From positions 1 to 31,229 of the IMG/VR virus record IMGVR_UViG_3300005529_000079: DNA of 31,229 nt; one strand, given 5' to 3'. This DNA is from a virus. The notes under the pieces were generated by a model, which made no database searches, was not told where the DNA came from, and saw only the letters and a program-made list of their open reading frames with translations. This document shows positions 3,413 to 27,010 of the stretch, piece after piece (the stretch's first letter is position 1; each line of letters opens with the position of its first letter). Both the position numbers and the translations under genes were made by a program.

Positions 3413-3618
3413 GCTACACAATCGAGCAGCTCGATGAGGCTGTTACCCGCGCAGTCAAACGCGAGCGCGAGAAGTGGCAGGCTACGCAGGTGTTCTGGTG
3501 TGACGAGCACGGTAATACGCACCCGGTACCGGTGCTTCATCGTGCCGAGTGGGGTGGCACCATCATGGTTCAGATAGAACGACCCGCTCCACAGCACTCG
3601 GGTGATGCAAGTGCTTAG
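3409..3618 (+). CDS. small hypothetical protein
   Basis: A 69-residue product, MSYTIEQLDEAVTRAVKRER at the start, with an amphipathic N-terminal helix followed by a probable beta-rich part (VFWCDEHGNTHPVPVLHR). ATG 3409 is in ATGA overlap with the preceding stop, and the 3' end overlaps the PAPS-reductase-like gene by 14 bases. No family was recognised. Confidence 0.6.
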   Translation: MSYTIEQLDEAVTRAVKREREKWQATQVFWCDEHGNTHPVPVLHRAEWGGTIMVQIERPAPQHSGDASA

Positions 3619-4447
3619 ATTGCTATCGTACGGAGGCGGCGTGCAAACGACAGTCGAGGCGCTGATGCACGCGAGTGGCGAGCTGCCACCAATCGATGGA
3701 GCGATATTCGCCGACACGCTCCAGGAGCCACGAGCGGTTTACCGGCAACTCGATTGGCTTCAGAAAGAAGTCGATAAGTCGAAACATCCGTTCCCGCTCT
3801 ACCGGGTGACCCGTGGTGATTTATGGAAGTCCGTCAGCACTGTGCGGACCACATTAGATGGACAGCGGCACTACATCAAAACTGCCATCCCGTTGCATTT
3901 CGTGAATTCAGATGGCGAGCCCGGTCGTGGCATGCGAAGTTGCAGCCAGGACTTCAAGATTAAGGTCGTCACAGCCAAGACGCGCGAACTGATTGGCCGT
4001 CGTCACAGACAGATCAAGGAATCAGACGGCGTTCTGGTGAGTATGCTGATCGGGTTTACCGTCGACGAAGTCCTGCGGATGAAAGACAACCCACTGCCGT
4101 GGATCCGCAATGTCTATCCCCTAATTGACGCTTCAATGAGCCGGGCCGATTGTCACGCTTGGGCTGAGCGCCGCGGATACCCGGAACTCGTCGGGTCCGC
4201 CTGCAAGTTCTGTCCGAACCGGACCGACTGGGGGGTGTTGGAGCCGGACGAGCTTCAGGAGTGCATTGACCGCGAGACTCAACTTCAGGCCGCGTATGCG
4301 CAGACCGAGATCAAAGGCGTGCCTTACCTTCATATCTCACGTATCCCTCTTTCACAGATCAAACATAGCGCCACGCGCCGCCGCAAGATGGCTGAGGAGC
4401 AATTGAACATGTTCATCAACCAATGCAACGGGGGCTGCGGTATATAG
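3605..4447 (+). CDS. PAPS reductase-family ATP-pyrophosphatase
   Basis: A 280-residue member of the adenine nucleotide alpha-hydrolase superfamily (PAPS reductase/DndC-like). The signature is a PP-loop variant SYGGGVQTTVEAL at residues 8-20. C113 (RSCSQDFK), CKFCP at 200-204 and a terminal CNGGCG (C274, C278) follow. Cys followed about 87 residues later by CxxC recalls iron-sulfur-binding APS reductases, and HSATRR near 254-259 may contact phosphate. Such proteins activate or reduce sulfate, or move sulfur or other groups onto nucleic acids; the substrate here is unknown. No DndD/E-like partner is visible. ATG 3605 was chosen; GTG 3602 is directly adjacent. It overlaps the preceding gene. Confidence 0.8.
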   Translation: MQVLRLLSYGGGVQTTVEALMHASGELPPIDGAIFADTLQEPRAVYRQLDWLQKEVDKSKHPFPLYRVTRGDLWKSVSTVRTTLDGQRHYIKTAIPLHFVNSDGEPGRGMRSCSQDFKIKVVTAKTRELIGRRHRQIKESDGVLVSMLIGFTVDEVLRMKDNPLPWIRNVYPLIDASMSRADCHAWAERRGYPELVGSACKFCPNRTDWGVLEPDELQECIDRETQLQAAYAQTEIKGVPYLHISRIPLSQIKHSATRRRKMAEEQLNMFINQCNGGCGI

Positions 4448-8133: not shown

Positions 8134-8414
8134 TGCTCGAGCCTCGAAAACTTCCCGGTCATGGCCAGCCCCTCGAGCCGGGCCGCTATCGCCCGCGTAG
8201 CCGCCGCATCCTCTCGGATCTCCTTTAGCTCCTCGTCCTGCCGCGTGAAGCGCCCGCCGCTTTCCTCGTGGCGCCTGTCTACCTTGCCATCCAGTTTCTC
8301 GATGGCTTCTTTCAACTCACCACGAGTCACGAAATATCTTTGGAGAACAGCCACGATCAAAGCTCCTACGATGGGGGTTGCCGCACACACTGCGGTGACG
8401 ATTGTCCAGTTCAA
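8130..8414 (-). CDS. membrane-anchored coiled-coil protein, possible spanin
   Basis: A 94-residue product with an N-terminal membrane helix (TIVTAVCAATPIVGALIVAV, about 3-22). A charged, helical periplasmic or cytoplasmic part follows (KEAIEKLDGKVDRRHEES and EELKEIREDAAATRAIAAR). This is the plan of i-spanins and of DUF2730-type phage proteins, and the place next to the endolysin fits. The start is taken as TTG 8412-8414 in a TTGA overlap with the spike gene; GTG at 8444 in the same frame is an alternative giving 104 residues. No embedded Rz1-like lipoprotein was seen. Confidence 0.65.
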   Translation of the reverse strand: MNWTIVTAVCAATPIVGALIVAVLQRYFVTRGELKEAIEKLDGKVDRRHEESGGRFTRQDEELKEIREDAAATRAIAARLEGLAMTGKFSRLEQ

Positions 8415-10294
8415 TTTGGAGTATCCGCAGCCGTGCGGCTGCACTCGTACCAGTTGCTGCCGTTGAACTCGAAGCGGATCGTGCGGTTGTTTCCGGTCGC
8501 GGGAGATACCCAGGCGCCGGCCAGTTTGTAACCGGCTGCGAATGTCACCGCTCCCAGAGCACCGCCTGAATTGTTGGCTATGCGGAAAGCGATCTCCTCG
8601 CCATCACCGACATTGGCGGCAGTGGGGACATTGATCGTGAAGGCCGTACCGTTGTTTGCCGTGATGTCGTAGAAATTCGATAGCCCATCAGGGGTCATGG
8701 ACGCAGAGTATGTGAGGGTGGTACGCCTGTTGATCATGCGAGTAGCCATCGTGGGAGATGATCCCGAAATGGGTCCACGGATGAGAAAAGAGCCTTCCTG
8801 ACGCGTGAAAGGCTGATCTGCGATTCCTCCATTGGTTGGATATCCTCCCACTCCATCGGAGAAATCTCCGATGCTGATCAGATTTGTAATCTGTACGGAA
8901 GTGTTGTGGATCTGGCCCGAAAGCGCGGTTGCACTACCTCCCCGCGTCACCGTATTACCGATGGAGGTCACATTGGTGGCCGGGCCATGAGCGATCCACG
9001 GTCCGTTGGGGCAATACACATAGTTCCCGCAAAACAGTGATGTGTTATTGGTAAGACCTGGACTGCCCGCGAACAAGTTGACATCGACGGTTGCATTGGC
9101 CTCGATGTGGCAGTTCGAGATTTCAAGCCCTGATACGCCTGTCAATGCGCAGGTTCCTCCTAACAATCCCTCTATCTCGCAACTGATGATCCGTAAGCCA
9201 TTGCATCCACGGCTGCTCGAATCGGCATTGTCTATCTTGATGAGCGTGCCGGAAGTCGCTCCATAGTTGGAGATTTCACAGCCGATGAACTCGACATCGT
9301 AGGAGCCGGTGCCATAGACGAAGTTTCCCGGATAGGGAGATGCCTTGATCAGGCAATGAGCGAACTTCCAGCTCTGCAGATAGTAAGACGCGTTGACACA
9401 TCTGATCTGGTAGAACTCACAGTGCAGGAACTTGATGCGCAGGAACTTTCCCGACATCACGAATGCGTTGTTCCCGGGCAGACTGCTCTCAAAACGGATG
9501 TTCTGGAATGTGACAAATTCCGACTTGGGATCGGTCGGAGCGGAAATGGAGGTATCGAACATTGTCACGGCACCGGTGACATAGAATCCGGCCTGGGGCC
9601 CCACTCCTTGTATCAGGAACTCTGACTGCATCGTCTGTACAAGTCGGTTGACGAACAGGGAGGAGCTGACCAGACACTTTCCCGGAATGATCAGCGATCC
9701 CCAATTGGTGCTGGCGGCACAGACAGAGATGGCCCGTTGAATGGCGGCTGTATCGTCAGTCACCCCATCGCAGGCAGCCCCATATCGACGCACATCCAGC
9801 CCTTGCAAAGGGTTGTAACTGTAGTTTGTCGGAGTGACAGCCGCGGAGATCTCAGTAGCGGTACGTGCGTAATATCCTATGTTCCCCGTGACCGTATCCA
9901 AAACCGGCGCGGCATTGGGTCCCAGATACAGATTAGCCCAGGAGAATGAGGAATTCCCTAGCGTCCGGGTATTGGTGGGCGTTGGGATCAATGAATTGGC
10001 GATCGGCAATATGCCGAAGCCACCAGGGATGTTATCGACCGTCCAGATGATGTTTCCGAATATATCCTTGAGAACCATCTTGTAAGAAAGCGTCGGATCG
10101 AGCCAAAGGTTACATTCTCCCCGGAAATTCAGATTGATCGGGTTTGTGTTCGGAGTGGTTTGGGTTGAATCAACGTACGTTGCTTGAGGTGTCGTCGTGC
10201 CTGCCGCGTAAGTCGTGAGCGTGCCGAGATACAACGGAAAACCATTGGCATCAAAGAATTTCTGAACCGGAACCGGTGCGAGCTGTGCCGTCAT
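8411..10294 (-). CDS. tailspike with pectate-lyase-type beta-helix
   Basis: A 627-residue receptor-binding protein. Residues 1-90 are a virion-anchor domain closely matching the N-terminus of the next gene upstream (LYLGTLTTYAAGT, TPNTNPINLNFRGEC, GNIIWTVDN). Residues about 165-205 carry the classic start of a Pectate_lyase_3/right-handed beta-helix (DVRRYGAACDGVTDDTAAIQ). Many short repeats of beta-helix type follow to about 500. The C-terminus (GAWVSPATGNNRTIRFEFNG, then SNWYECSRT) is a beta-rich terminal domain common to podophage spikes. Probably degrades or binds surface polysaccharide; substrate unknown. It overlaps neighbours by four bases on each side. Confidence 0.85.
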   Translation of the reverse strand: MTAQLAPVPVQKFFDANGFPLYLGTLTTYAAGTTTPQATYVDSTQTTPNTNPINLNFRGECNLWLDPTLSYKMVLKDIFGNIIWTVDNIPGGFGILPIANSLIPTPTNTRTLGNSSFSWANLYLGPNAAPVLDTVTGNIGYYARTATEISAAVTPTNYSYNPLQGLDVRRYGAACDGVTDDTAAIQRAISVCAASTNWGSLIIPGKCLVSSSLFVNRLVQTMQSEFLIQGVGPQAGFYVTGAVTMFDTSISAPTDPKSEFVTFQNIRFESSLPGNNAFVMSGKFLRIKFLHCEFYQIRCVNASYYLQSWKFAHCLIKASPYPGNFVYGTGSYDVEFIGCEISNYGATSGTLIKIDNADSSSRGCNGLRIISCEIEGLLGGTCALTGVSGLEISNCHIEANATVDVNLFAGSPGLTNNTSLFCGNYVYCPNGPWIAHGPATNVTSIGNTVTRGGSATALSGQIHNTSVQITNLISIGDFSDGVGGYPTNGGIADQPFTRQEGSFLIRGPISGSSPTMATRMINRRTTLTYSASMTPDGLSNFYDITANNGTAFTINVPTAANVGDGEEIAFRIANNSGGALGAVTFAAGYKLAGAWVSPATGNNRTIRFEFNGSNWYECSRTAADTPN

Positions 10295-11379
10295 GATAGT
10301 GGATACACAAAAACATTAGCGACTTGACTGGCCCCGCCATCTCCGATTCCCTTGGTCCCGACATTGGTCCAACCCGACGCGCTGCCGTTTTTATAGAAGC
10401 TGAAACTCGTTGTCCCTGGGGCGCCCTGAGCCACAAAACCCACTTGTGAATAAAGAGCCGCTCCGTTGTCCTGCATCGCTGCGCAGGCGACATACTGAGC
10501 GGTGACAATCGAAGGCCGGATAATCGAATTGCCCGTGAAAGTCAGCCCGAAAGTAGTCGCATTGCTGGTTCCTGAAATCTGCGGAATCCGGAGTACACAT
10601 AGATTGTTCAGGATGGTGTAAGTCGCAGTTACATTGACTGTCCCACTGACACCACTCAGTGTTCCGCCAGTCGTGCCTGTTGCGATGATGCCGGTCTGCA
10701 GCCCGCTGATTGCGACTCCGATCTGTCCAGTACCGGCATGGAATAATCCGGTACCGGTATCACCGATGAATGCAATCGAAGGGGCTGCTGCAGTACCTGG
10801 CACCGCCAGTACTCCGCCTGCGAATGATCCGGCCAGCAGAAGCCAATTTCCCCCTTTGTACATGACCTGGATGACCTGATTAGTGGCAATCTGTCCGGAG
10901 CGAAGTGCCGATCCATCCTGATTGAGAATGTTGACCACGCCCAGTCCATTCACATTCAGAGTGGAAGCGCCGGTGTTAGCGTTAGAGGCGATGAAGACCA
11001 CTATTACACCGTCGGTAAGCGCGGCAAAACTGGCGGTGAAATTCACCACATAAACATTCGCGCTGCCCGTATCTACTCCGCCATAGAGTGTTATGAGCTG
11101 ACTGTTGACTACATTATCGATAGTCCAAATGAGATTTCCGGCGGAATCCTTGAGTTGAAATTTGTAGGAGACGTTAGGCAACACCCAACAATCGCATTCA
11201 CCCCGTGTGTTCAGGACAATGGGGTTTGCATTGGGAGTGCTGCCGGTAGAATCTGTGTACGTGGCGATCGGTGTGACAGTGCCGGCCGCATAGGTGGTCA
11301 GCGTACCCAGGTATAGTGGGTTACCGTTGTTGTCATAAAACCGCTGCTTCAGGAGCGGGCTGAGAACGGCAGTCGTCAT
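10291..11379 (-). CDS. tail fibre, shares anchor domain with tailspike
   Basis: A 362-residue protein. The first ~90 residues are a duplicate of the tailspike anchor (NPLYLGTLTTYAAGTVTPIA, then DSTGSTPNANPIVLNTRGEC and GNLIWTIDN). The remainder is Gly/Thr/Ser-rich and beta-structured (ASNANTGASTLNVNGLG, GTGLFHAGTGQIGVA), as in short tail fibres, and it ends in a distinct C-terminal domain with no beta-helix signature. Probably a second receptor-binding protein, or an adaptor carrying the spike. The genes overlap by four bases, so both are made together. Confidence 0.75.
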   Translation of the reverse strand: MTTAVLSPLLKQRFYDNNGNPLYLGTLTTYAAGTVTPIATYTDSTGSTPNANPIVLNTRGECDCWVLPNVSYKFQLKDSAGNLIWTIDNVVNSQLITLYGGVDTGSANVYVVNFTASFAALTDGVIVVFIASNANTGASTLNVNGLGVVNILNQDGSALRSGQIATNQVIQVMYKGGNWLLLAGSFAGGVLAVPGTAAAPSIAFIGDTGTGLFHAGTGQIGVAISGLQTGIIATGTTGGTLSGVSGTVNVTATYTILNNLCVLRIPQISGTSNATTFGLTFTGNSIIRPSIVTAQYVACAAMQDNGAALYSQVGFVAQGAPGTTSFSFYKNGSASGWTNVGTKGIGDGGASQVANVFVYPLS

Positions 11380-15718: not shown

Positions 15719-16375
15719 CTAAATGTTGAAGTGACATACCCATACCATCCGACTGTCTTCAGGAGTGGTTCCGATTCCGATTCGAGGAATACGGGAGTGA
15801 AAGAGAGGCGCCTTGAAAATCACTGCACGATTGTAGAGACCATCAACGTAGTGGACCTGCTGCCAAGCGTCTTCCGAGGCTGAATCCATATCACGGTTCA
15901 GACTTTCGAATTGCTTACTACTCATCCAATGCGCATTGACTTGAGGATGCTCGCAACTGTCCGTTTCCAGGTGACGATAGAACGCAGTACCGGATTTATC
16001 CTTCTCCTTGGATAGATACACAATGCAGGAAAAGTCCCCGAACATGCGATCACTGTGAATTCGCGACGGATCGGATTTCTCACCAGTAACGCGGAAGATC
16101 ATGCTAGCCGGAAAGACTGGGCATCCCATGGCTTTGGTGAGGGCGCGCACCAAGGGAGAATGCATACCGTTGATGTTCACGCCATCATAGTTCTTGTAGC
16201 CCATGACAGTGTTGGTCGGATGCCAGGTACCGAATCCAGTCACCAAGGCTGACTGACGGATCTCATCCGGATTAGGTACAAATTGATCCACCACCATGAC
16301 CCATGGTTTGACCTCGGCCCCATCATCCAGGCGACGGGTATAGAGATTCATCGGGCTGATGCGTGCAGCTTTCAT
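15719..16375 (-). CDS. 2-oxoglutarate/Fe(II)-dependent oxygenase (DUF6445/prolyl-hydroxylase-like)
   Basis: A 218-residue protein that probably hydroxylates a protein, nucleic acid or small molecule using 2-oxoglutarate and O2. The iron triad is visible: HSD at 107-109 (RIHSDRMFGDFSCIVYLS), distal His193 in KAPLFHSRIP, and an Arg at 196 or 209 placed to hold 2-oxoglutarate. GTAFYRH at 129-135 and YNRAVIFKAP are typical strands of the double-stranded beta-helix fold. It is joined by ATGA overlap to the gene before and sits between tail and ejection genes, so it is made with virion proteins. Substrate not determined. Confidence 0.8.
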   Translation of the reverse strand: MKAARISPMNLYTRRLDDGAEVKPWVMVVDQFVPNPDEIRQSALVTGFGTWHPTNTVMGYKNYDGVNINGMHSPLVRALTKAMGCPVFPASMIFRVTGEKSDPSRIHSDRMFGDFSCIVYLSKEKDKSGTAFYRHLETDSCEHPQVNAHWMSSKQFESLNRDMDSASEDAWQQVHYVDGLYNRAVIFKAPLFHSRIPRIGIGTTPEDSRMVWVCHFNI

Positions 16376-16710
16376 CGGGGCACGAATGTCATGGTTGGAG
16401 CTGCCGAATAGGTTACTTTCAAGGTGTCGCCTTGAGATAAGGGGAACATTCCTGATGTCTGGCCCGTTCCATAGAAAGTAGAGCCATCGCGTGAGTACAG
16501 AATCTGGCTCACAGTGCCACCACTCACGATGACATTACCGCCAACTGGCGCGACGTAACTGAAAGGCGATCCCGACGGCGATATGGCACTTACCAGTCCA
16601 TTGGGTTGTCCGGAAAACAATCCTGCCCAGAATGCATACCAGCCGCGAGTCGTGACACCGTCAGTCTCGAGCGGCTCTTGATAGGTAGGCTGTCGATTAG
16701 GCGTTGTCAT
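16372..16710 (-). CDS. small virion-module protein
   Basis: A 112-residue product if started at ATG 16710, in ATGA overlap with the gp10-like stop; the frame is open further upstream. It contains TRGWYAFWAGLFSGQPNG near the middle and a Gly/Ser/Thr-rich beta part (PVGGNVIVSGGTVSQILYS). Its place, next to the P22 gp10-like protein, suggests a tail accessory or head-completion component. No family was recognised. Confidence 0.6.
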   Translation of the reverse strand: MTTPNRQPTYQEPLETDGVTTRGWYAFWAGLFSGQPNGLVSAISPSGSPFSYVAPVGGNVIVSGGTVSQILYSRDGSTFYGTGQTSGMFPLSQGDTLKVTYSAAPTMTFVPR

Positions 16711-18473
16711 GATGCGGTAGAGTTCTCTGACTCGCCGAACAGCGTGGCGCCTACGATATCCCGGGGCACCGGGTCGGAGAAATTGGCTTCCCAAACCCGA
16801 TCGCGCGCCTCACCGCATTGGTAGACGATGGCACGGTTTCGCGTGTCCCCAGCCAGTCCGATGGGCACATCAATCTCATTGCCCCAACTGAAGCCACCAT
16901 CGTCACTCCAACGCACCATGACGAGGGGATTGGATCCCTGTCCTGCCTGCAGGCCTACGCCCGGAGTGAATTCAATCTGCAAACTCGCCTGGAAAATGCG
17001 CTTTCTGGTCTCGGGCTGCCATAGATGTGGCGTACGTCGCTGACATCTCAGAGGCGCGCCGTTGTCGGCATAGATCGTGCGGCTCTGCATGTGGATCTGG
17101 CCGCTCTGGTAATCGCCCCACATGCGGACATTGGCGAAATTGACGTAGCAATTACCCAAGTGCCGATGATAGATACCGGTCGAGGCGTTCCAGGAGAGAC
17201 GCTGCCACCATCCATAGGCACCGTGGGAGGCGATATAAGTTGTGGCATCCAGCACCCAGGTCACATCCGCAGTCGGGAGAGTGAGCACGTAATGCACATG
17301 CCCGAGCTCCTCGTAGCAATCCCCAATGGCGTCGGATGTCTGCGGATAGCCGTTCAGGGCATTGTCGATGGCGTGAGTAGAGACGCGCTCGACAGCGTAT
17401 TGACTGGTGCGCACTACGAAATTCTGGCCTTGCTCGTTTTGGGCCAACCAACACAGTGAGGATCCTACCCGCGTAATGGAGTGTTGAGCGGCACATCCAT
17501 ATTGAGGTCCGATACCGGGTAAGCGCGCAAAGGCGAAATTGGTGCCGCCCGCGTTATACCAGACCTCACTGGTGCGTTCACCAATCAACCACAGCTCGCG
17601 GTTGTTCTCATGCAACGTCACCAAGTTATCGGTGCTCGAATCTTTGAGTGCGTAGAATGCACCAGCAAACGTGAGCGTATATGGCACCGGAGCATTCGTG
17701 TAGAAAGTCCGCGTACCGGGTTGATTGAAAATCAGCCATCCTTCGATGAACGCGACACGGGAAGCGCCGAGAAAAGCAGGATCCGTGATCTGACCAAACT
17801 GTGGAATCGACAACGTGAAGGTATCGCCAGTCTGATTGGAGGTCGCACTCGCATTGAAAGTGATCGTATTGCCTGTGAAGCTGATTGATTGAATCGTGGT
17901 GGCTGGGATGGCTCCGGCGCTGTCCGTAAGAGTCGCCGCGCTCGAGACAATCAGGTAATTGGGAACGATGTTTCCCGGGCTGAATGAGATCGTGGACTGG
18001 CCTGAGGTCAGATTACCGGTGAATGTGACGTTACGGGCGCCTCCGATCTGATAGAAGTATCCATACTGGCCATCCACCAATACGGCATATCCTCCCAACC
18101 CATTGAACAGCACACCGTTGTCACGGATGACGACTCGACCATTGTTGGTAAGCAGTGTGCCGACCTGAACAATGGAAAACTGCGCGATGCTGTTCTGGGT
18201 CGCCTGAACGGTAACGGAGGCGAGATAAACAATGTTTGCGGTGACGAAAAGGCACGTCAGATTGCCAGGCAATACCCAGGCGCCCCGCACGGCTCCGCTG
18301 ATGGTGTTCAAAATCGGGGATAGTCCTGGAGCCCCCAGTAATGCGACTGGCATCTTGGCCTTCGGACTATTGTCCAACTCCACGAACCAATTTATCAGTC
18401 GTTGGGCATCCTGAAGCAACATGGGTGCTTCATAAGCGGAGCCGACGAATCCGAAATCAGCGCCCTCGAACAT
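16707..18473 (-). CDS. P22 gp10-like tail hub / DNA stabilisation protein
   Basis: A 588-residue protein of the short-tail hub group that closes the packaged head (P22 gp10 type). The N-terminus has the family pattern QRLINWFVELDNSPKAKMPV followed by ALLGAPGLSP. Residues about 147-223 are an inserted beta domain with Gly/Thr/Ser repeats (FTGNLTSGQSTISFS, then IPATTIQSISFTGNTITFNA). The C-terminal half contains WSDDGGFSWGNE near 528-540, typical of such hubs. It overlaps the gp4-like stop by one base and the next gene by four. Confidence 0.75.
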   Translation of the reverse strand: MFEGADFGFVGSAYEAPMLLQDAQRLINWFVELDNSPKAKMPVALLGAPGLSPILNTISGAVRGAWVLPGNLTCLFVTANIVYLASVTVQATQNSIAQFSIVQVGTLLTNNGRVVIRDNGVLFNGLGGYAVLVDGQYGYFYQIGGARNVTFTGNLTSGQSTISFSPGNIVPNYLIVSSAATLTDSAGAIPATTIQSISFTGNTITFNASATSNQTGDTFTLSIPQFGQITDPAFLGASRVAFIEGWLIFNQPGTRTFYTNAPVPYTLTFAGAFYALKDSSTDNLVTLHENNRELWLIGERTSEVWYNAGGTNFAFARLPGIGPQYGCAAQHSITRVGSSLCWLAQNEQGQNFVVRTSQYAVERVSTHAIDNALNGYPQTSDAIGDCYEELGHVHYVLTLPTADVTWVLDATTYIASHGAYGWWQRLSWNASTGIYHRHLGNCYVNFANVRMWGDYQSGQIHMQSRTIYADNGAPLRCQRRTPHLWQPETRKRIFQASLQIEFTPGVGLQAGQGSNPLVMVRWSDDGGFSWGNEIDVPIGLAGDTRNRAIVYQCGEARDRVWEANFSDPVPRDIVGATLFGESENSTAS

Positions 18474-19447
18474 CAGACAAAGCCTCCATGCATGATCCAG
18501 CCCGCGTCGTGCTGCTGACTGCGCACGATGTCGGAGTCGTATCTGAGGGTAGTGACTGGCGAGGCGTTGAGTCCTTTGATGAAAGCGCGTGCTTCAGCAG
18601 CAGCTTTTATTAGCATTGCGCTGGGCGTCTTTCCATAGCCGGGGCAGAATTCCAGGGCGGCGAGCTTTTTGAGCGCCCTCGTATAGCCCTGTGGCAAGTT
18701 GTAATTGGTTGTGATCAGCGGAAAGGCAACAGTGTTGCCATTGTTCAGGATCGTATCCGTGAACAGATGGACTTCGCCGGCCTGTGTCGGATTGGGGTAG
18801 ATCCAGATCGTGCCCAACGGAAAGGTCGGCTGGTAGGCCAATACGGTAGGCCAGGGGCCTGGAACGCCCTTATATCCCAGCTCGTTGTAGCGCTCCATGG
18901 TGAGCGTGCAATCAAACCAGTAATCGAGCCCGGTATTGCCTGCGGAAGTGATCCTTGTGTATCCGCTACTGATCCTCAACGGTCGCGGAATATTGATGTT
19001 TCCGGGAGTCGTGTAGGTGAATTGCTCGGCCGGATTGACAGTGACGATGGCATTTGCGCTTAGCGTCACGGTGCCTGCGCCGGCATTGAACGATAGAATC
19101 GTCGTACCGGCCGGCAACGCCGCCTGTGTATCAGTGACTGTTCCGCCCGCGACAAGACCGGAGGGAACAGTAACGCCTGAAATCACTGGCGAACCACCGA
19201 CTAGAGTTCCGTTGAATGTCCCGGCTACCGGATTGCCGATGGTGTACTTGTACTGACCGGGGGTCCATCCCGTGAAGACATTCTCTGTCTGGCAATAGAT
19301 GAAATCCTTATCCACCGACAGCGAATCCATGAGGTCATTCAGCTTACGCAACGCCACCGCCCCGTTGTTGGGCGCTAGCACTTGTCCTGGCGAGAGCGCG
19401 TTGATGTCGATCAGCGCATCCGTGATGATTTCCGACGCGGTAGTCAA
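18473..19447 (-). CDS. P22 gp4-like head-tail adaptor
   Basis: A 324-residue protein resembling the P22 gp4 tail accessory factor that attaches to the portal after packaging. The N-terminal helical region reads EIITDALIDINALSPGQV then ALRKLNDLMDSLS, the recognised pattern for this family. Residues 75-148 form an inserted Gly/Thr beta domain (VSGL-AGGTVTDTQAALPAGT type). The start is TTG 19445-19447 in a TTGA overlap with the preceding stop; no in-frame ATG lies nearby. No cell-wall hydrolase motif was noticed, although P22 gp4 has such activity. Confidence 0.75.
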   Translation of the reverse strand: MTTASEIITDALIDINALSPGQVLAPNNGAVALRKLNDLMDSLSVDKDFIYCQTENVFTGWTPGQYKYTIGNPVAGTFNGTLVGGSPVISGVTVPSGLVAGGTVTDTQAALPAGTTILSFNAGAGTVTLSANAIVTVNPAEQFTYTTPGNINIPRPLRISSGYTRITSAGNTGLDYWFDCTLTMERYNELGYKGVPGPWPTVLAYQPTFPLGTIWIYPNPTQAGEVHLFTDTILNNGNTVAFPLITTNYNLPQGYTRALKKLAALEFCPGYGKTPSAMLIKAAAEARAFIKGLNASPVTTLRYDSDIVRSQQHDAGWIMHGGFV

Positions 19448-19770
19448 CCTGGCATCACTCCCACCAGTACTACATCCGCCACCGAAGCCGTCAAGGTCAT
19501 CGGACCCGCGCTGTTCTTCAGTCCAGGAAACGTATATGTCGTGTCAACGGTGGTAGATCCCGTCAACACGACATTGCGTGCAGTCCCATCCTCTCCCCGG
19601 AATCCTCCTATTGTCAGGGTCACCGCACTACCGTTCTTCAGGATTGTGACCGAGTATAGCCGGGTGTCGTTAGCCGCCCCGGCTGCACCGGCGCCGATCA
19701 GCCCTGCCTGCACCTGGATGACACTGGTCGAGTGCAGAAGTCGTGGGTCTTGAACGACAAAGACATCCAT
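19444..19770 (-). CDS. small virion protein of unknown role
   Basis: A 108-residue product from ATG 19770 (the frame is open upstream, but MDVFVVQDPRLL is the natural start, seven bases after the previous stop). Beta-rich, with an Ala/Gly-rich segment (AGLIGAGAAGAANDTRLYSV). It lies between the capsid-side protein at 19778 and the head-tail adaptor, so a head or neck component is likely. No family was recognised. Confidence 0.6.
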   Translation of the reverse strand: MDVFVVQDPRLLHSTSVIQVQAGLIGAGAAGAANDTRLYSVTILKNGSAVTLTIGGFRGEDGTARNVVLTGSTTVDTTYTFPGLKNSAGPMTLTASVADVVLVGVMPG

Positions 19771-19777
19771 AGCCCAC

Positions 19778-20101
19778 CTATTGAATCTGGGAAGGCAATG
19801 GCAACGTGCTGGGCCGGTCCACCGCAACCAGATATACCTCCGCTGCCGTGGGTACGATCGGTGAGGCGGTGGCATTGGCGAAGGTGATCGCCAACGTGTT
19901 GGCCGCCGAAACACGGGCGTTCACGATGCCTAATCCAGCTTGAGTGGTCGGTTTCGTGACATTGACGTAGTCGCTTGTCAGAAGACCGTTGACCGTGAAA
20001 GTCTGTTCGGCAGTCGTATTAGCGCCTACTGAACTCGGAGAAAGCGTTACACCCAGGAGCCAGGATCCCTGAATGTTGCCGCGAATTAGCGTCTGTTCCA
20101 C
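19778..20101 (-). CDS. small Ser/Thr/Ala-rich virion protein, possible decoration protein
   Basis: A 107-residue product with GTG start at 20099-20101 and AGGAG about seven bases upstream. Composition is beta-rich (SVGANTTAEQTFTVNGL, GIVNARVSAANTLAITFANA), matching small proteins found directly after the coat gene in many podophages. Those are often called head decoration or fibre-like proteins, though their role is unproven. It lies 39 bases after the major capsid gene, across a GC-rich hairpin. Confidence 0.6.
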   Translation of the reverse strand: MEQTLIRGNIQGSWLLGVTLSPSSVGANTTAEQTFTVNGLLTSDYVNVTKPTTQAGLGIVNARVSAANTLAITFANATASPIVPTAAEVYLVAVDRPSTLPLPSQIQ

Positions 20102-20114
20102 AAAGTTCTCCTGA

Positions 20115-20133
20115 AGGGGCGACAGCCGCCCCT
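20115..20133 (-). terminator. GC-rich hairpin after the capsid gene
   Basis: A perfect seven-base stem, AGGGGCG and CGCCCCT (minus strand), with a five-base loop starts seven bases after the capsid TAA at 20141-20143. No T-run follows; the next ribosome site AGGAG begins a few bases later. It would therefore act as a transcription attenuator or as an mRNA 3' stabiliser that sets capsid expression above downstream genes, rather than as a full terminator. Confidence 0.5.
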
Positions 20134-20140
20134 ATCGGGT

Positions 20141-21496
20141 TTAGCCGGCGATTCGCAGGCCCAGCGTTCGATAGATGCTGGCGGGTCCATACAACACATC
20201 CGCGCGAGTGGGCTCGGAATCGTTGTTGATGGTGTATTGCGTGACCACGCGGATGCTCATGCCGACATCCTCATCGTCATAGGCTCGGGCCGCGAATTCC
20301 ACGCCACGGGGCAACGGAAGATCCGCGAACGCAAGCGCGTACGCATACTTATGGAACACCAGACCCTGAGGGCTCACCTGGTTGGCATTCGCCGTACCGC
20401 CATTGACCGTGATCGCAGCCCCGGAGACCGGCGCTGCCGTGACGTTCTGGAACTGGCCGGCGGAGATGCAACAATCGCCGATGACCAGAGTCAGGGTACC
20501 GGTGTTGGAGCTCGTGTACTGGCCGGTTGTGGCATTGAAGGTACCCGCCGCAAGTGTGGCCGGTGCATAGGTGAGGCCCGGCGCCGCGGCACCGTTGGCC
20601 GGGGTCGCAAATCCACCCGGGGGCAGCACAACGAACTGTCGCAATGCCTTGCCGTATTGCAGACGGTTCTGCGGATTAACCGGAAAGACGCCTGCAAATT
20701 GGATGACATCGCCGACATTGATGACCGCAGTGCTTGCGGTCCAACCTTGAGTCGAGACGGTGCCGGATTGCGCCCACCCGGAAGTCAGGAAAGCCGTTCC
20801 CGCAATGGGGGTCGTCAGGACGGGCGTGCCGCCCTGAGCACCTGTGGTGAACACCGGGATATTCTGGTCTTCCCACCAGTCGAGGCCTGCGAATTCCTTC
20901 GCGATCATGCCGGCATCGATGTACTCACTGATCTTGGCCTGCGGATTGAACAGGCCCTGGACAGTTGCGACCATCGAGGACATGGAGATCGGATCCAGCA
21001 CCGCATTTTTCTCGCCGTCCCGCGGGCAGGCCTCGGCCGCCAAGGTCGCACGGGCGTCCGTGAACAACTTGAGCGAATTCGGCGTGACGCCTGGTGTGCC
21101 AAGCGAAGCCGCAGTGTTCAGATAGGCGTACTGGGCCGTGTCAGAGTCAACACGGTTCGCAACAGTGGCGATCTGGGGACGCAGAATGCGCTTCTTGAAC
21201 ATGTCCATGCTCAAGGCCAGATCCTGGGTGGTGAACTGCACGTCCACATGGAACTGATAATTCAGCACCACAGGGATGGACTGCTCGAACGTGTCTTCGA
21301 CGTTCAGGGGCGGTCCGTAGGTGCCCTTGTAGCGGGGCGGCCGGCGGATATTGACGGTGTTACCGATCTTCGCGCCCGTCTGGGCAAACTCATCCGAGTA
21401 CTGCCGCTCGACGCGGTTTGCGATGATCAGCTCGTTTTCAAGTACGACGAGAGCTTCATTCGTGATGTAGCTCATCGTCAGGAGCTGCTGAGTCAT
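20141..21496 (-). CDS. major capsid protein, P22 coat-like
   Basis: A 451-residue coat protein of the HK97 fold as found in P22-like phages. The N-terminal half carries the pattern SYITNEALVVLENELIIANR, then RRPPRYKGTYGPPLNVED, FHVDVQFTTQDLAL and AQYAYLNTAASLGTPGVTP. A Gly/Thr-rich insertion follows (about 240-370), and the C-terminus ends in YGPASIYRTLGLRIAG. An N-terminal ATG at residue 8 (MSYITNEAL) is an alternative start. AGGA lies nine bases before ATG 21496, partly inside a stem. The gene is bracketed by two hairpins. It follows the scaffold, the usual order. Confidence 0.85.
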   Translation of the reverse strand: MTQQLLTMSYITNEALVVLENELIIANRVERQYSDEFAQTGAKIGNTVNIRRPPRYKGTYGPPLNVEDTFEQSIPVVLNYQFHVDVQFTTQDLALSMDMFKKRILRPQIATVANRVDSDTAQYAYLNTAASLGTPGVTPNSLKLFTDARATLAAEACPRDGEKNAVLDPISMSSMVATVQGLFNPQAKISEYIDAGMIAKEFAGLDWWEDQNIPVFTTGAQGGTPVLTTPIAGTAFLTSGWAQSGTVSTQGWTASTAVINVGDVIQFAGVFPVNPQNRLQYGKALRQFVVLPPGGFATPANGAAAPGLTYAPATLAAGTFNATTGQYTSSNTGTLTLVIGDCCISAGQFQNVTAAPVSGAAITVNGGTANANQVSPQGLVFHKYAYALAFADLPLPRGVEFAARAYDDEDVGMSIRVVTQYTINNDSEPTRADVLYGPASIYRTLGLRIAG

Positions 21497-21506
21497 GTGT
21501 TGAGTT

Positions 21507-21528
21507 CCTGAAAAAGGTTACTTTCAGG
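21507..21528 (-). promoter_or_regulatory. inverted repeat covering the capsid ribosome site
   Basis: CCTGAAA at 21522-21528 (minus reading) pairs with TTTCAGG at 21507-21513 to make a seven-base stem with an eight-base loop. The three last stem bases are part of the AGGA ribosome site of the capsid gene (start 21496). The element could tune capsid translation, or be opened by ribosomes finishing the scaffold gene 16 bases upstream. Structure was read by eye. Confidence 0.45.
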
Positions 21529-21543
21529 AGCCCTACAACCATC

Positions 21544-22617
21544 TCAATGCCGTGCTTTCTCGCGTCGGCGATTGCGCTCGTATTCGCGAAGCTGTTTGAA
21601 GTCCATCTTCGCAGGATCGGTCACAATGCCGGTCGTACCTTCGCCTGACAAGGGAGTGATGGGAGTGGGGGCTCCACCGCGCTCGACGCGTGTCACCGGC
21701 TCTGCGGCTGCTACAGCAGGTTTTGCAGGGTCAGTGAGCCTCGCCTCGAGCTTGCCGAGTTCGGCCAACGCCAAAATCGGCTTCATCTTGGAAATCCGGA
21801 CCGTTTCCTCAGGGTTCTTCATCAAGTAATAGTGAAGTTCCCCGCCTTGTTCAGACTCAAACAGGTAGTTCAGCACGTGCTGCGGCACCTGATCAGCCGC
21901 TGTACCCTTGACGGACTCAACAACTTTGTCGAAGTCGGGATGGTCCCTGCGGACCTTCTCGAACCGTGACTTCATTCGCGCCTCGGCTTCGGATCTCTCC
22001 TTCGCCGCTTGTTCATCTGCCAGTTTCTTTCGCTCATCTGCAACAGCTTGCGCTGCTTCGAACTTTGCTACGTCCTTGGAATAGGTCTTCCAGTCAAACT
22101 GGCCGTTGACTTGATACTTCGGATCGGTCTCCGAAGGCTCTTTGAGCTCAGGTTCCGGCTCTTTCTTGGGAGCCTGAGCTTCAAGGGCCTTCGCACGCGC
22201 TTCAGCCTCTTCTGCGCGCTTCTCCGCGAGCTTGCGCTCGTTGAACTGCTGCTCGGCGAAGCGCTCGTTTTCCTCCGCCAACTCCTGCGCTTCCTTCATG
22301 GCGCGGTGTTTCTTGTTGAATTTCTCTTCCGCCTTGCGCCCGAGGATTCGGCGTTCCTCATCGGTGAAGTCTTCCCAACCCTCATTCGTCTGAGATTCTG
22401 TCTTTGCCTCGTTTTCGGCCTGCTTTTGCGGATTTTCCGCAAATTCGGGCTTCTTTTCGGCTTCCTGGGGCTGTTTCGTTACTTCCTCGACGCTCTTTGT
22501 AGCGGCAACGGGGGTTTCTGCCGGCCCGTTGGTCTTCGGTTTGTGGTCTGGAACGTGAGTGACCGTGCCATTCTGCACAAACTCGGTGAGACCCTGCGAA
22601 GTGACGACTTTACCCAT
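21544..22617 (-). CDS. scaffolding protein
   Basis: A 357-residue, highly charged helical protein directly upstream of the coat gene, as scaffolds of podophages are. An acidic, Gln/Glu-rich N-terminus is followed by a long coiled coil (about 80-225, with EERRILGRKAEEKFNKKHRA and AEKRAEEAEARAKALEAQAP). It then has RRDHPDFDKVVESVK, and a basic C-terminal end RREYERNRRREKARH-like (REYERNRRREKARH) that would bind coat protein. It directs procapsid assembly and should leave before DNA packaging. Assignment rests on composition, order and basic tail. Confidence 0.8.
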   Translation of the reverse strand: MGKVVTSQGLTEFVQNGTVTHVPDHKPKTNGPAETPVAATKSVEEVTKQPQEAEKKPEFAENPQKQAENEAKTESQTNEGWEDFTDEERRILGRKAEEKFNKKHRAMKEAQELAEENERFAEQQFNERKLAEKRAEEAEARAKALEAQAPKKEPEPELKEPSETDPKYQVNGQFDWKTYSKDVAKFEAAQAVADERKKLADEQAAKERSEAEARMKSRFEKVRRDHPDFDKVVESVKGTAADQVPQHVLNYLFESEQGGELHYYLMKNPEETVRISKMKPILALAELGKLEARLTDPAKPAVAAAEPVTRVERGGAPTPITPLSGEGTTGIVTDPAKMDFKQLREYERNRRREKARH

Positions 22618-22620
22618 GAC

Positions 22621-23178
22621 TTACTTCTTCGCCACCAGAGTGGCAACCAGATCCTGCGCGGCTTCTTTGTAGAATGTCGTCGAGAACGCGACTCGCTCCT
22701 GATTTTTGGTCAGTAGCTCCGGATGTAGCGTATGGCCCCACGTTGCCTCGAAATCACACTTATATCCGGCCGGATTCCATTCGATATCGTTGTCAGGCGC
22801 GTTCTGCAGCCGCCAGGTCTTGGACACGTAGAAATACAACATTTCCGAGACGGGCGGCCAGGCGTGCGTGAAATCGCCATAAGCTCGATTGCTACACCAG
22901 TGGGGCGTGGCAATCGTTGCCTTTCCACCCGGAACCAAGACGCGATACATCTCGTTGAAGATTTGTACGCGCTCCTGGCCAGTGAAGTGCTCGAGTACAT
23001 GACTCATGTTGATTTCGTCAACTGATGAATCTGCCCATGGCCAAACGGTCAGCAGATCGGTGACGACATCTACGCCCTCAAAGGTGCGGCGATCGACGCC
23101 CAGGAAGCCGGGCTTCTTGTTCTTGCCGCAACCCAGGTCGAGCTTGATCGGCTTTACTTCTTCAGCGACTGCATTCAT
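22621..23178 (-). CDS. class I SAM-dependent methyltransferase
   Basis: A 185-residue methyltransferase (Methyltransf_11-like Rossmann fold). Visible are motif I LDLGCGKNKKPGFLGVD at 13-29 (SAM-binding Gly loop and acidic end), SSVDEINMSHVLEHF at 51-65 and the VLVPGGKATIATPHW strand-loop at 80-94. ATG 23178 sits in a TAATG junction with the glycosyltransferase stop, so the two are translated together. Acceptor unknown; the pairing with a glycosyltransferase suggests modification of a sugar or virion protein. The frame extends further upstream, but the inner ATG fits the junction. Confidence 0.75.
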   Translation of the reverse strand: MNAVAEEVKPIKLDLGCGKNKKPGFLGVDRRTFEGVDVVTDLLTVWPWADSSVDEINMSHVLEHFTGQERVQIFNEMYRVLVPGGKATIATPHWCSNRAYGDFTHAWPPVSEMLYFYVSKTWRLQNAPDNDIEWNPAGYKCDFEATWGHTLHPELLTKNQERVAFSTTFYKEAAQDLVATLVAKK

Positions 23179-23924
23179 TACCACACCATGTCTTTCGGCC
23201 CGAAGGAGCCGTCGTAATCGAGATGACCAACCTTCACCGAGCAATCGATGGCGCACCGATAGCCGTATTTGTGTGCGTCGCTCCAGAAGGTCAGATCCTG
23301 AGTGCCCACCCCTTGTCCGTCCCGACCGTTATAAGTCTGGAACCAGGGCTTTTTGAGCCGCTCATCCTTGAACATGGAGAGTCGCCAGAGATTGAAACCC
23401 ATACCGGTGCCCCAGCACTCCACCAAGCCCCCCAGGGGATCGGGCAACTGAGGGCGGAAATTCGGCATGGGATCGCGGATATCACCCCAGATCTGGGCAA
23501 CACCGCCCTCGCCTTTCGTGAAGTAGAGCCCCCCGATACAAGCCAATTCAGGATGCTCTTCCATTCGCTCTACGAGTTTCACTACACCGTCTGGGGGCGG
23601 CAGATTGTCGTGCTCAATGGTCAGGATGTACTCCCAACCACCGAGCGTCTGATCCGCCAGGATCTGAGCAATCGCAGTCGAGTAGGCATCCCCAACTTCC
23701 ATTCCTTGGGCCAGAACTCGCACTACGCCGTTGTTGGGCGGAAACGCGAGATTCCAGTGTGACAACGAAGCTTTCGCCGGAAGCATGTCACCGGCTGGCA
23801 GGATCACGACAATGCGCTGCCGTTTCCAGCTTCCACCTTTCAACAGCCGCGCGCGCGTACCCTCCAGGTCCGCGTTATGCGCGCCAGCGAAAGTGTCCGT
23901 CATCACCAGTTGGGGTTTGGCCAT
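23178..23924 (-). CDS. GT-A type glycosyltransferase
   Basis: A 248-residue protein of GT2-like GT-A fold. After an N-terminal strand (RIVVILPAGDMLPAKASLSH) comes WEYILTIEHDNLPPPDGVV at about 97-115, whose EHDN is the metal- and nucleotide-sugar-binding DxD equivalent. GTGMGFNLWR near 172-181 and GTQDLTFWSDAHKYGYR near 207-223 match the acceptor side. The ATG at 23922-23924 overlaps the previous stop (TGATG) with AGGA eight bases before; a TTG lies one codon upstream. It may glycosylate capsid, tail or DNA; the target is unknown. Confidence 0.75.
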   Translation of the reverse strand: MAKPQLVMTDTFAGAHNADLEGTRARLLKGGSWKRQRIVVILPAGDMLPAKASLSHWNLAFPPNNGVVRVLAQGMEVGDAYSTAIAQILADQTLGGWEYILTIEHDNLPPPDGVVKLVERMEEHPELACIGGLYFTKGEGGVAQIWGDIRDPMPNFRPQLPDPLGGLVECWGTGMGFNLWRLSMFKDERLKKPWFQTYNGRDGQGVGTQDLTFWSDAHKYGYRCAIDCSVKVGHLDYDGSFGPKDMVW

Positions 23925-24784
23925 CAATAGTTCCTGAAGACGTAGGCGAACTGCGCCGCGGACTGGTTCGCGCCGGTCTGGTTGATCTGGGTCACCGGAA
24001 TCGATACGGGAATACCGGTCTGAGCGGAGCTCCAGATACCCATCGCACCATACAGACCGCTGTTGGCGGTGGTTGCCGCAGTGATCTCAGCGTAGTTCAA
24101 CGCAGACTGGTTGCTGTTCCAGCCTTGGACGGAGATGGTGTTACCGAGGTTCGTCGTCGCGGTGCCGATGCTGGATGAGTTTGTGGACCAGTTGAATGCG
24201 ACGAAATACTCGCCCGGCGTCATGCTGATGTTCATCGGCACGGAGATCGGCCGAATCGCACTGGCGCTCAACTGGCTTTGGCCTGAGTTGTTCGACGCGT
24301 AGGTATAGGTCGTCTGCGTGGAGCCTGAGGAGAGCGTCACGAGCGCCGAGCTACCTGTGTTGTTCGAATAGACCGCGCCATAGGCGGAGATCACCATCGC
24401 GGCAGTGGCCGCGGTGGCCGCAGTGGCCGCGGCAATGTTCACCAGCAGATCCATACGACTTGCGGTGACCGGCCACAGGCAATCCAGGTACTGGATGCTC
24501 AAGGAACCCTGGCCCGGGGCCGTGAGATTGGTGAAGCCAGTCTGGGCGATCAGGCGGGGTACTGCGCCCGCACTCTGGGGAATACCCAGAACAGCCCACT
24601 GGCCCGCGGTGGTGACATAGCACATGCCCTGGTCGGATGTGTTGGCGAGAAAGCCAGGGGCAAAGTTGCTGGCTGCTGGCAGTGTCGCGAAAGTATAGGC
24701 AGTCGTGGTGCCGGATTGAACGATCGCGGCCGGTTCACTGTTGGGGGTCGAAGCGGATGCCGGCCCCGGGTTAACGGTGGTCAT
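23924..24784 (-). CDS. structural-looking protein, Thr/Ser/Ala-rich
   Basis: A 286-residue protein with a low-complexity N-terminus (MTTVNPGPASASTPNSEPAA), many Ser/Thr/Asn/Gly strands, a tripled Ala-Ala-Thr segment (see repeat at 24404) and a regular beta C-terminal half (SVPMNISMTPGEYFVAFNWS). It looks like a virion surface or fibre-type protein between the portal and the glycosyltransferase. AGGAG precedes ATG 24784. Family not recognised; as the direct neighbour of the glycosyltransferase, its Ser/Thr/Asn-rich surface is a candidate acceptor. Confidence 0.6.
   Translation of the reverse strand: MTTVNPGPASASTPNSEPAAIVQSGTTTAYTFATLPAASNFAPGFLANTSDQGMCYVTTAGQWAVLGIPQSAGAVPRLIAQTGFTNLTAPGQGSLSIQYLDCLWPVTASRMDLLVNIAAATAATAATAAMVISAYGAVYSNNTGSSALVTLSSGSTQTTYTYASNNSGQSQLSASAIRPISVPMNISMTPGEYFVAFNWSTNSSSIGTATTNLGNTISVQGWNSNQSALNYAEITAATTANSGLYGAMGIWSSAQTGIPVSIPVTQINQTGANQSAAQFAYVFRNY
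24404..24430. repeat. three 9-bp in-frame tandem units
   Basis: Units AGTGGCCGC, GGTGGCCGC and AGTGGCCGC lie in tandem and encode Ala-Ala-Thr triplets within a virion protein on the minus strand. It is a short in-frame array that could change in copy number by slippage. Confidence 0.6.
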
Positions 24785-24811: not shown

Positions 24812-27010
24812 TCATGCTGAGCCGTTGGGCCGTTTCTCGGCTTTCTCCGCCGCTTGGGCCGTCATTGCAGCGAGGTCTTTCTCGTGCGCACGGTCCTGAT
24901 TGCTGTCGATCAGCTTCGCCCCCGCATTGATCTCCGCCACGTCGCGCGCGGTAACGCTCCTGACGTGCGTATCGAATCTCTCGGTATCGGCCCGAACATC
25001 GGTGTCGCGCCGTTTGGTTGTATCGCGGATCTGCTCACGCTCGGTCTCGGCGCCCTGGCGCATCTGCTCGATGCCCGTCCTGTATTTGATCTCCAGCGCC
25101 TGCTGTTGAATGATCTGCTGGGCCTGCTGGACCTGGGTCATCAACGCCTGAACAATACCCTGAGCTTCCTTGGGGAGCGCCTGAATGGCCTTTTGCATAC
25201 CCTGAGGATTGGTGGGCAGCAGACGATCGGCCAGATCATCGGCACCAGTGATGTCCAGGTTTCGCACCACGATATCGGCGCCGGTCTTGACGATGGGCTC
25301 CGCCAGTGGAGTGCGGAGCAAATCGAGCAGTGTCTCAGCGCCCTCCTGGCGCTTGGTCTCGTAGCCTGGGCCCGTGTCCATCACGACATCGTATCGGCCG
25401 ACCGTCAGATTGTTCTTCACCTCGAGGATGGCGCGTGTCTGCGGATCAGAGACCTGCTGGTTAATCTGCACCATCTGGGGGACTCCATCCTCCCCGATGA
25501 TCCGCTGCATGCGCTGCGTCGAGTAGTAGTGCGGTATCAGATCCAGCAGGATCTCGCCCGTGTGGGCGATCGCCATCGTCTGGTTGTCGTAGTACTGAAA
25601 GTGACTCCGATCAGTCGAGGCCTGGCGCTCCCGCAACGCCTTGCCCGAGACCACCGTGCCGGGCGTGTCGGCGCGGGGCTCATGGGGCATACCGGCGAGC
25701 ATCATCAGGTCCTGGAGCGCACCTTGACGCGCGTTAACCACGCCGGCCGGGATCTGAACGGCCTCCTGGCGCTGCGGAGGCGGCAATACAGGGGAATTCT
25801 GGTCCTCGGGGTTAGCGTGGACTACTGCATAGACCAGCGCGCTGTAGGCCTTCTGGTTGGCGTCCTTCCATTCCGGATGCCCGTCGAGTTGGCCCTCGGC
25901 CGCGATGAAAGGTGCTCGAGGCGCCAATGCCACCAACTCGGTCTCGCATGTGGCCCAGTAGTTCAGCATGCGGTTGGTGTCTTTGAGGTCACGCACCATA
26001 CCGCGACGCCGGATCTGGCCATTCAGATCCAGCACGTTGCCTTCACAGCGCACGAGCGGGATCCAATAGCCCGGCAGTGGCCGCTGATCGCCTTTGCCAC
26101 CATAGCAGCGCCGGTCCACGACCTCGGTACCATTCAGCCGATACCACTCGATTACACGCCGGTGGCTCATGCGGCTGATTTCTTTGCCCTGCTCGTCTCG
26201 CGCGACCGCAATGCCCTTTTCCAACAGGACGGCGCGCAAGCGCTTCAAATCGCGCTCGTAAAGGGTGGTGCCATCGGTGAGTTGATAGAGTCGTTCCGGG
26301 ATCTTGCGCACCCGGTAGTACTCGGCCAGACGGACTTTGCTCTTTGATTCCCAGAGCTTGCCGGTATCGCCAGCCCCACCACCGCGGAACTCGACGTTCT
26401 TGGCATCCGGATATTTGCGCTTGTACTTCTGCCGGCTCATCTCCTCTGTGATGAGCGCCCACTCACGATCCGCTCCCGTCGGAAGTTGGGCGTAGGGATC
26501 GTCGTAGACCGTGAATGCATTGCGGATCGCACGTATCTTGAGCTCCTGGTCGAAGCTCTCAGGCGAGACGTACTCACCCAGAATGCGCCAGTAGCCCCAG
26601 CCGATCTTGACTGCGCTTTCACCGCCTGTGTCATAGGCGTGAGATGCCTTGGAAAGATTCTCGATGTGCCGGATGAGACCGGAAACGACCTTCGCATCCT
26701 CGATCCGTGCGCCATCGCCCACCGGATGCACTTTGATCCGGGGACGCTGCTGCCGCATGTTGTTGCAGACCTCGCGCACACAGCGACGGGTCATGTTGAT
26801 TGTCAGCGTTGGACGCTTCTGGATCTTGCGTAGATTGTAGAGGTCATCCGGCCACTGTTGGCCGTCCTCAAACTCCAGATCCTCAAGCGCGAGAGTGTTG
26901 TTCTCTCCATTCGCTTCCATCGAGATCCGCAGCCGCTCGTCCGCCTCGAGAAAAATCTCTTTGTCGGTAACGGCTGGGTATTCGTCGAATTCTTGTGGGA
27001 TCTGCGGCAC
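24812..27010 (-). CDS. portal protein, P22-like
   Basis: A 732-residue portal of the P22 gp1 type, the dodecameric DNA gate. The N-terminal region has WPDDLYNLRKIQKRPTLTIN, then NNMRQQRPRIKVHPVGDGAR and a GGESAVKIGWGYWRI block, and the centre contains RDLKDTNRMLNYWATCETEL. The C-terminal part is a long Gln/Glu/Arg helical barrel (MTQVQQAQQIIQQQALEIKY), as in P22-like portals with an extended barrel. The start is GTG at 27008-27010, preceded by GGGGCG. It lies 99 bases after the terminase gene. Confidence 0.9.
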   Translation of the reverse strand: MPQIPQEFDEYPAVTDKEIFLEADERLRISMEANGENNTLALEDLEFEDGQQWPDDLYNLRKIQKRPTLTINMTRRCVREVCNNMRQQRPRIKVHPVGDGARIEDAKVVSGLIRHIENLSKASHAYDTGGESAVKIGWGYWRILGEYVSPESFDQELKIRAIRNAFTVYDDPYAQLPTGADREWALITEEMSRQKYKRKYPDAKNVEFRGGGAGDTGKLWESKSKVRLAEYYRVRKIPERLYQLTDGTTLYERDLKRLRAVLLEKGIAVARDEQGKEISRMSHRRVIEWYRLNGTEVVDRRCYGGKGDQRPLPGYWIPLVRCEGNVLDLNGQIRRRGMVRDLKDTNRMLNYWATCETELVALAPRAPFIAAEGQLDGHPEWKDANQKAYSALVYAVVHANPEDQNSPVLPPPQRQEAVQIPAGVVNARQGALQDLMMLAGMPHEPRADTPGTVVSGKALRERQASTDRSHFQYYDNQTMAIAHTGEILLDLIPHYYSTQRMQRIIGEDGVPQMVQINQQVSDPQTRAILEVKNNLTVGRYDVVMDTGPGYETKRQEGAETLLDLLRTPLAEPIVKTGADIVVRNLDITGADDLADRLLPTNPQGMQKAIQALPKEAQGIVQALMTQVQQAQQIIQQQALEIKYRTGIEQMRQGAETEREQIRDTTKRRDTDVRADTERFDTHVRSVTARDVAEINAGAKLIDSNQDRAHEKDLAAMTAQAAEKAEKRPNGSA

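Follow-up and report, generated by a model that had tools for sequence, protein, structure and literature searches.

Which virion component may be modified by a glycosyltransferase and a methyltransferase that are encoded among the head and tail genes of a phage? Few phages are documented to have glycosylated virions, and the protein modified by a given phage glycosyltransferase is usually unknown; for the locus described here comparative genomics points to a probable acceptor. The window, by which we mean the whole analysed stretch of 31,229 bases, is a virus contig of a P22-like podophage with a single minus-strand late operon. Its portal (P22_portal, E 7e-141) and coat protein (P22_CoatProtein, E 9e-35) were identified by Pfam search, and scaffold and Hc3/gp10-like proteins are encoded in the same operon. 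The genes of a Ser/Thr/Ala-rich protein (STA), the glycosyltransferase (GT), the methyltransferase (MT) and an oxygenase (OXY) all lie within this head/tail operon on the minus strand (Table 1). An earlier note had placed the three enzyme genes there and had proposed that OXY, GT and MT form one route which hydroxylates, glycosylates and methylates a virion protein. The coordinates, strand and operon context of the three reading frames were confirmed, and the enzyme types that it had named agree with motifs, Pfam matches and a model of OXY.

Table 1. Genes of the STA-GT-MT block, its borders and the oxygenase gene in the window
Feature	Coordinates	Strand	Description
STA	23924..24784	-	Ser/Thr/Ala-rich, lysine-free virion-type protein, 286 aa; probable acceptor
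GT	23178..23924	-	GT-A / GT2-like glycosyltransferase, 248 aa, ATG at 23924
MT	22621..23178	-	class I SAM methyltransferase (Methyltransf_11), 185 aa, ATG at 23178
OXY	15719..16375	-	DUF6445 protein, 2OG-Fe(II) oxygenase fold, HxD...H...R; outside the STA-GT-MT unit
P22-like portal protein	24812..27010	-	upstream border of the block
Head scaffolding protein	21544..22617	-	downstream border of the block

GT and MT had been described as joined stop to start. The joint is even closer, as the stop codon of GT and the start codon of MT overlap in TAATG, and STA and GT overlap likewise in TGATG. Therefore, the joined genes are three and not two. OXY is not adjacent to GT or MT; more than 6 kb with several genes separate it from MT. 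The match of GT to PF00535 was below the curated cut-off (E 0.0016), and 10 of 36 members of the GT family matched this profile at E <= 0.01. The GT profile also led to SpsA, a GT-A enzyme of the GT2 type with solved structures (1qg8 and others); the DxD region of SpsA aligns with it, whereas the match as a whole is weak and local only (E 0.007, 42 positions). The residues E105-x-D107-N108, Q210-D211 and H235 do not vary among 36 homologues and can be read as catalytic motifs of the GT-A type. Together with the weak but consistent PF00535 and SpsA matches, this suggests that GT is a phage-encoded glycosyltransferase with intact catalytic motifs. MT passed the cut-off of Methyltransf_11 (E 1e-8, 36.2 bits against 21.2), and its motif I (DLGCG), the acidic residue of motif II and an H..EH region are conserved in 26 homologues. 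On these grounds it is predicted to be a class I SAM methyltransferase.

Relatives were gathered separately with GT, MT and an STA subfamily as starting points. In the 80 loci found with GT, MT adjoins GT in nearly every one. Clustering of the reading frames in the GT neighbourhood yielded an STA-like cluster in 75 loci and MT in 66, with the next cluster at about 17, and a profile of the STA domain matched in 67 of 81 GT-bearing loci. Similar results were obtained starting from MT: 79 of 80 loci contained GT within 3 kb, the remaining locus being truncated where its contig ends, and 68 of 80 contained the STA domain at a distance of up to 5 kb. For STA, a scan with the single protein returned two loci only, and an alignment of nine STA relatives was dropped as a scan profile because it was too divergent; the STA-based sampling used a tight five-sequence subfamily (A7). 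All 17 loci found in this way with at least 2.5 kb of downstream sequence contained GT and MT, in 16 cases downstream of the matched STA copy. Across 128 non-identical GT-MT loci, STA lies upstream of GT in 108 and MT downstream of GT in 125, the STA domain being undetectable in about 15% of GT-MT loci. Altogether, the three-gene unit STA-GT-MT was found in more than 100 uncultured phages. The earlier note had named the adjacent Ser/Thr/Ala-rich protein as one possible target, besides the coat; this part of its proposal stood, as a unit that recurs, and OXY fell outside the unit.

Distances between the proteins were weakly correlated (Mantel r 0.31 for GT-MT, 0.13 for GT-STA and none for MT-STA). 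Therefore, enzymes and acceptor do not co-diverge tightly, and the components have apparently been exchanged with their arrangement retained, which would fit a functional bond but is no proof of it. Cellular matches to the GT family numbered six among 84,980 genomes, all of them on contigs of Patescibacteria MAGs with 40-61% identity and mostly in the order STA-GT-MT. By these searches the GT family seems almost confined to viruses, and the cassette almost confined to uncultivated phages. Loci L185-L190, on contigs binned as Azambacteria, Yonathbacteria, Magasanikbacteria and Yanofskybacteria (Patescibacteria), carry a divergent GT, mostly with STA and MT, and are probably phages of Patescibacteria hosts.

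The distribution of the block was followed in contigs encoding a coat protein with 69-94% identity to that of the window; 35 of these contigs span the region from portal to gp4. STA, GT and MT are all present in 5 of these 35 contigs and all absent in 30. The window and L125/L126 have about 2.2 kb between portal and scaffold; in 51 relatives that lack the module, this gap does not exceed 507 nt. Elsewhere, the block precedes the portal (L151), separates the coat protein from g107 (L017/L018) or separates g107 from gp4 (L130, L163/L164). The block is all-or-none in related phages and occupies at least four slots. Genes for Endonuclease VII (PF02945) and GIY-YIG (PF01541) proteins were observed between GT and MT in some copies of the module (L024:8992-9570, L038:9404-10102), and homing by such enzymes is a possible vehicle that would aid movement of the block.

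The composition of the protein encoded upstream of GT agrees with what had been claimed: its 286 residues comprise 36 serines, 36 threonines and 45 alanines, and no lysine. STA-type proteins contain 27% Ser plus Thr and 0.3% lysine, compared with 15% and 4% in other reading frames of the same loci, and the STA-like neighbours of GT are Ser/Thr-rich and mostly 240-1,430 residues long. Conserved among them is a C-terminal domain of about 190 residues. In the STA of the window it starts at about residue 89 and makes up the bulk of the protein, and it is common to long fibre-like proteins beside GT-MT in other phages. In the longer members Ser/Asn-rich repeats separate the N-terminus from this domain, and these proteins look like a fibre with a stalk. 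Many STAs, including that of the window, have no repeat stalk. Therefore, if STA is the acceptor, the target would be in the C-terminal domain or in the short N-terminal part. N-x-S/T sequons were enriched in STA-type proteins (1037 versus 735 +/- 27 in shuffles), which we do not take as evidence of N-glycosylation because these proteins are repetitive. A second STA-domain gene besides the module copy was seen in several loci (L174:12414-14858, also L062, L071, L130 and L026).

The C-terminal domain was modelled as all-beta (pLDDT 72.6). A fold search against solved structures gave no match at E <= 0.001 (best E 2e-3), the weak matches being to the central fibre of a mycobacteriophage and to a capsid protein of a cyanophage, and the STA profile found nothing useful among PDB sequences. 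Predicted viral proteins gave better fold matches; these are mostly unnamed, and several carry a minor tail or collagen-like annotation. Linkage and synteny, together with a weak resemblance to fibre proteins and minor tail proteins of phages, suggest that STA is located in the virion. GT and MT thus appear to be genetically linked to a virion protein, and this linkage makes STA the probable acceptor of the glycan.

Further evidence comes from the sugar chemistry of the module. A nucleotide-sugar epimerase/dehydratase gene is located between GT and MT in 11 of the 128 loci and nowhere else in these loci; the five that were tested matched GDP_Man_Dehyd and Epimerase at E 1e-46 to 1e-54. Within the annotated phage collection, which gave no match to the window in a DNA-level search, GT occurs in one genome only, ctKR88 (Podoviridae sp., MW202524; three copies), which is uncharacterised and derives from an environmental sample. 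It shares with the window an STA-domain protein, GT (61% identical), MT (52%) and the podophage structural region, and differs in three extra annotated GT genes, which lie upstream of the STA-domain protein, MT, GT and MT in this order, and in the second methyltransferase. The epimerase copies and the GT genes of ctKR88 independently support the view that sugar transfer is the likely business of the module. In the enlarged glycan locus of MW202524 (L266, 3147-11978), the gene of the STA-domain protein is surrounded by four annotated GT genes and by two methyltransferase genes.

We interpret STA-GT-MT (22621-24784) as a mobile, self-contained cassette for virion glycosylation which travels with its probable acceptor, and we give this reading a probability of about 0.65. 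From the late operon, STA would be produced as a charge-poor, lysine-free, Ser/Thr-rich appendage of the virion, such as a head or tail fibre or a decoration protein. Before or in the course of assembly, the translationally coupled GT would attach an O-linked sugar to STA in the cytoplasm, with a nucleotide sugar of the host as donor or, in some relatives, with one from the cassette-borne epimerase/dehydratase. MT may then methylate the sugar or the glycosylated residue, and the glycan would be capped or altered. A likely benefit would be an altered particle surface with consequences for adsorption, stability or shielding. OXY would act separately, as a 2OG oxygenase that is encoded in the virion operon and has a different substrate.

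It is also conceivable, if unlikely, that GT and MT modify another virion protein (the coat, the tailspike or several) and that STA is a passenger or partner. In the mycobacteriophages Che8, Rita and others, glycans are reported on the subunits of the capsid and the tail tube (Freeman et al. 2023, as cited in PMC11256854 and PMC12619734), and several of our loci contain further structural-looking reading frames between STA and GT. However, phages with a coat protein 85-93% identical to that of the window lack GT-MT, so this coat does not need these enzymes, and it is STA that recurs as neighbour of GT-MT in unrelated phages. According to the citing papers, phage-encoded GTs are thought to put glycans on virion proteins in mycobacteriophages as well, with capsid and tail tube as acceptors in contrast to the lysine-free appendage-type probable acceptor of the window. 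Compared with that account, the module adds an MT partner, a nearly virus-only GT family and an acceptor gene in the same transcription unit. In mycobacteriophage Maravista the GT genes are found near the 3' end of the genome (PMC11256854), whereas the window encodes a single GT-A-type enzyme and MT directly behind STA, inside the head operon. No description of the STA-GT-MT gene set was found in the open-access full-text literature. Together with the differing acceptor, GT family, MT partner and gene layout, this suggests that the kind is known from mycobacteriophages and that the STA-GT-MT arrangement is a new variant.

Remodelling of host surface glycans by GT and MT, as in seroconversion or superinfection exclusion, is an improbable alternative. 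Although this is a common role of phage GTs (see also PMC12619734), the genes are coupled within the late operon of virion genes, and the protein to which they are linked is of a structural type. Moreover, GT is a single protein of 248 residues, gtr-type membrane partners are not beside it in the operon as we read it, and its family is nearly absent from bacterial genomes.

The route proposed in the earlier note, in which OXY hydroxylates, GT glycosylates the new hydroxyl and MT caps the product, is very doubtful. It draws on the presence of all three genes in one operon and on the fold of OXY. In Pfam OXY matched DUF6445 alone (E 5e-12), and 12 homologues show no variation at H107-x-D109, H193 and R209. 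The best 50 solved structures matched by the AlphaFold2 model (pLDDT 78.6) were 2OG-Fe(II)-type oxygenases (E down to 5.5e-6, TM about 0.5); the OXY profile returned nothing useful from PDB sequences. OXY is accordingly a predicted 2OG-Fe(II) oxygenase with a jelly-roll (DSBH) fold, an HxD...H triad and a basic residue. Nevertheless, OXY and GT are found apart in nearly all contigs. The homologues of OXY, on 23 P22-like contigs, immediately follow gp10 and, where this can be seen, precede the first ejection protein, and OXY holds this slot in P22-like phages without the module. Whole-contig searches, in which many contigs were fragments, found the window-type GT in 1 and not in the other 22 of the 23 OXY contigs, and a clear OXY homologue in 1 of 50 GT contigs, with three more weak matches. 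PF13640 oxygenases do not substitute for OXY, being present in 1 of the 50. Contig 3300050821_004113, a relative of the window with OXY (67% identical), STA, GT (73%) and MT, speaks for the route, and a hand count in the coat family gave OXY in 2 of 5 module carriers (window included) compared with 0 of at least 12 others, a weak association. In a collagen-type pathway the hydroxylase and the GT act on one residue and co-occur; here they are apart, and as STA has no lysine, a hydroxylysine-type route on STA is impossible. Serine and threonine accept sugar without prior hydroxylation. OXY therefore looks like an independent late gene, the product of which would act on another substrate. Cyanophages likewise encode 2OG-Fe(II) oxygenases, the role of which is unsettled (PMC3037559); OXY differs from these enzymes of other phages as a DUF6445/phrog_1644 protein whose position behind gp10 is constant across P22-like phages.

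DNA hypermodification, in which a 2OG oxygenase or hydroxymethylase makes hydroxymethylated bases that GT glycosylates, can hardly be the explanation: hypermodification of DNA by virus-encoded GTs does occur (Pyle et al. 2024, as cited in PMC12619734), but OXY matches DUF6445 only and not Tet/JBP, thymidylate-synthase-type enzymes occur in 3, C5 methylases in 7 and Tet_JBP in 0 of 39 GT contigs (the Tet_JBP positive control gave no match anywhere), and GT is linked to a structural-type protein, which disfavours a TET/JBP-dependent pathway with a Tet_JBP oxygenase and a C5-cytosine methylase.

Glycosylation of STA by a travelling cassette is thus the reading we prefer. Since the same three genes are found together across unrelated phages, substrate and enzymes are testable by simple co-expression. 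If the reading is true, glycosylated and methylated virion appendages would be common in environmental phages, which would bear on adsorption, particle stability and immune recognition. We see an even chance that a cassette of acceptor and enzymes, consisting of a fibre-like lysine-free protein, a virus-specific GT, an optional epimerase and MT, is widespread in tailed phages, uses one conserved beta-domain as substrate, moves between phages as a unit and was overlooked because hardly any cultured phage carries it.

Some other genes of the window deserve mention. Two overlapping tailspike-like genes (8411-10294 and 10291-11379) have closely similar N-termini, and the first encodes a pectate-lyase-like beta-helix (PF12708). 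The protein encoded at 3602-4447 has an N-terminal LSYGGGVQTT motif and is PAPS-reductase/ATP-pyrophosphatase-like, with no match in the Pfam search. A candidate HNH-type homing endonuclease is encoded at 155-925, and its relatives were found in the head operons of several related phages.
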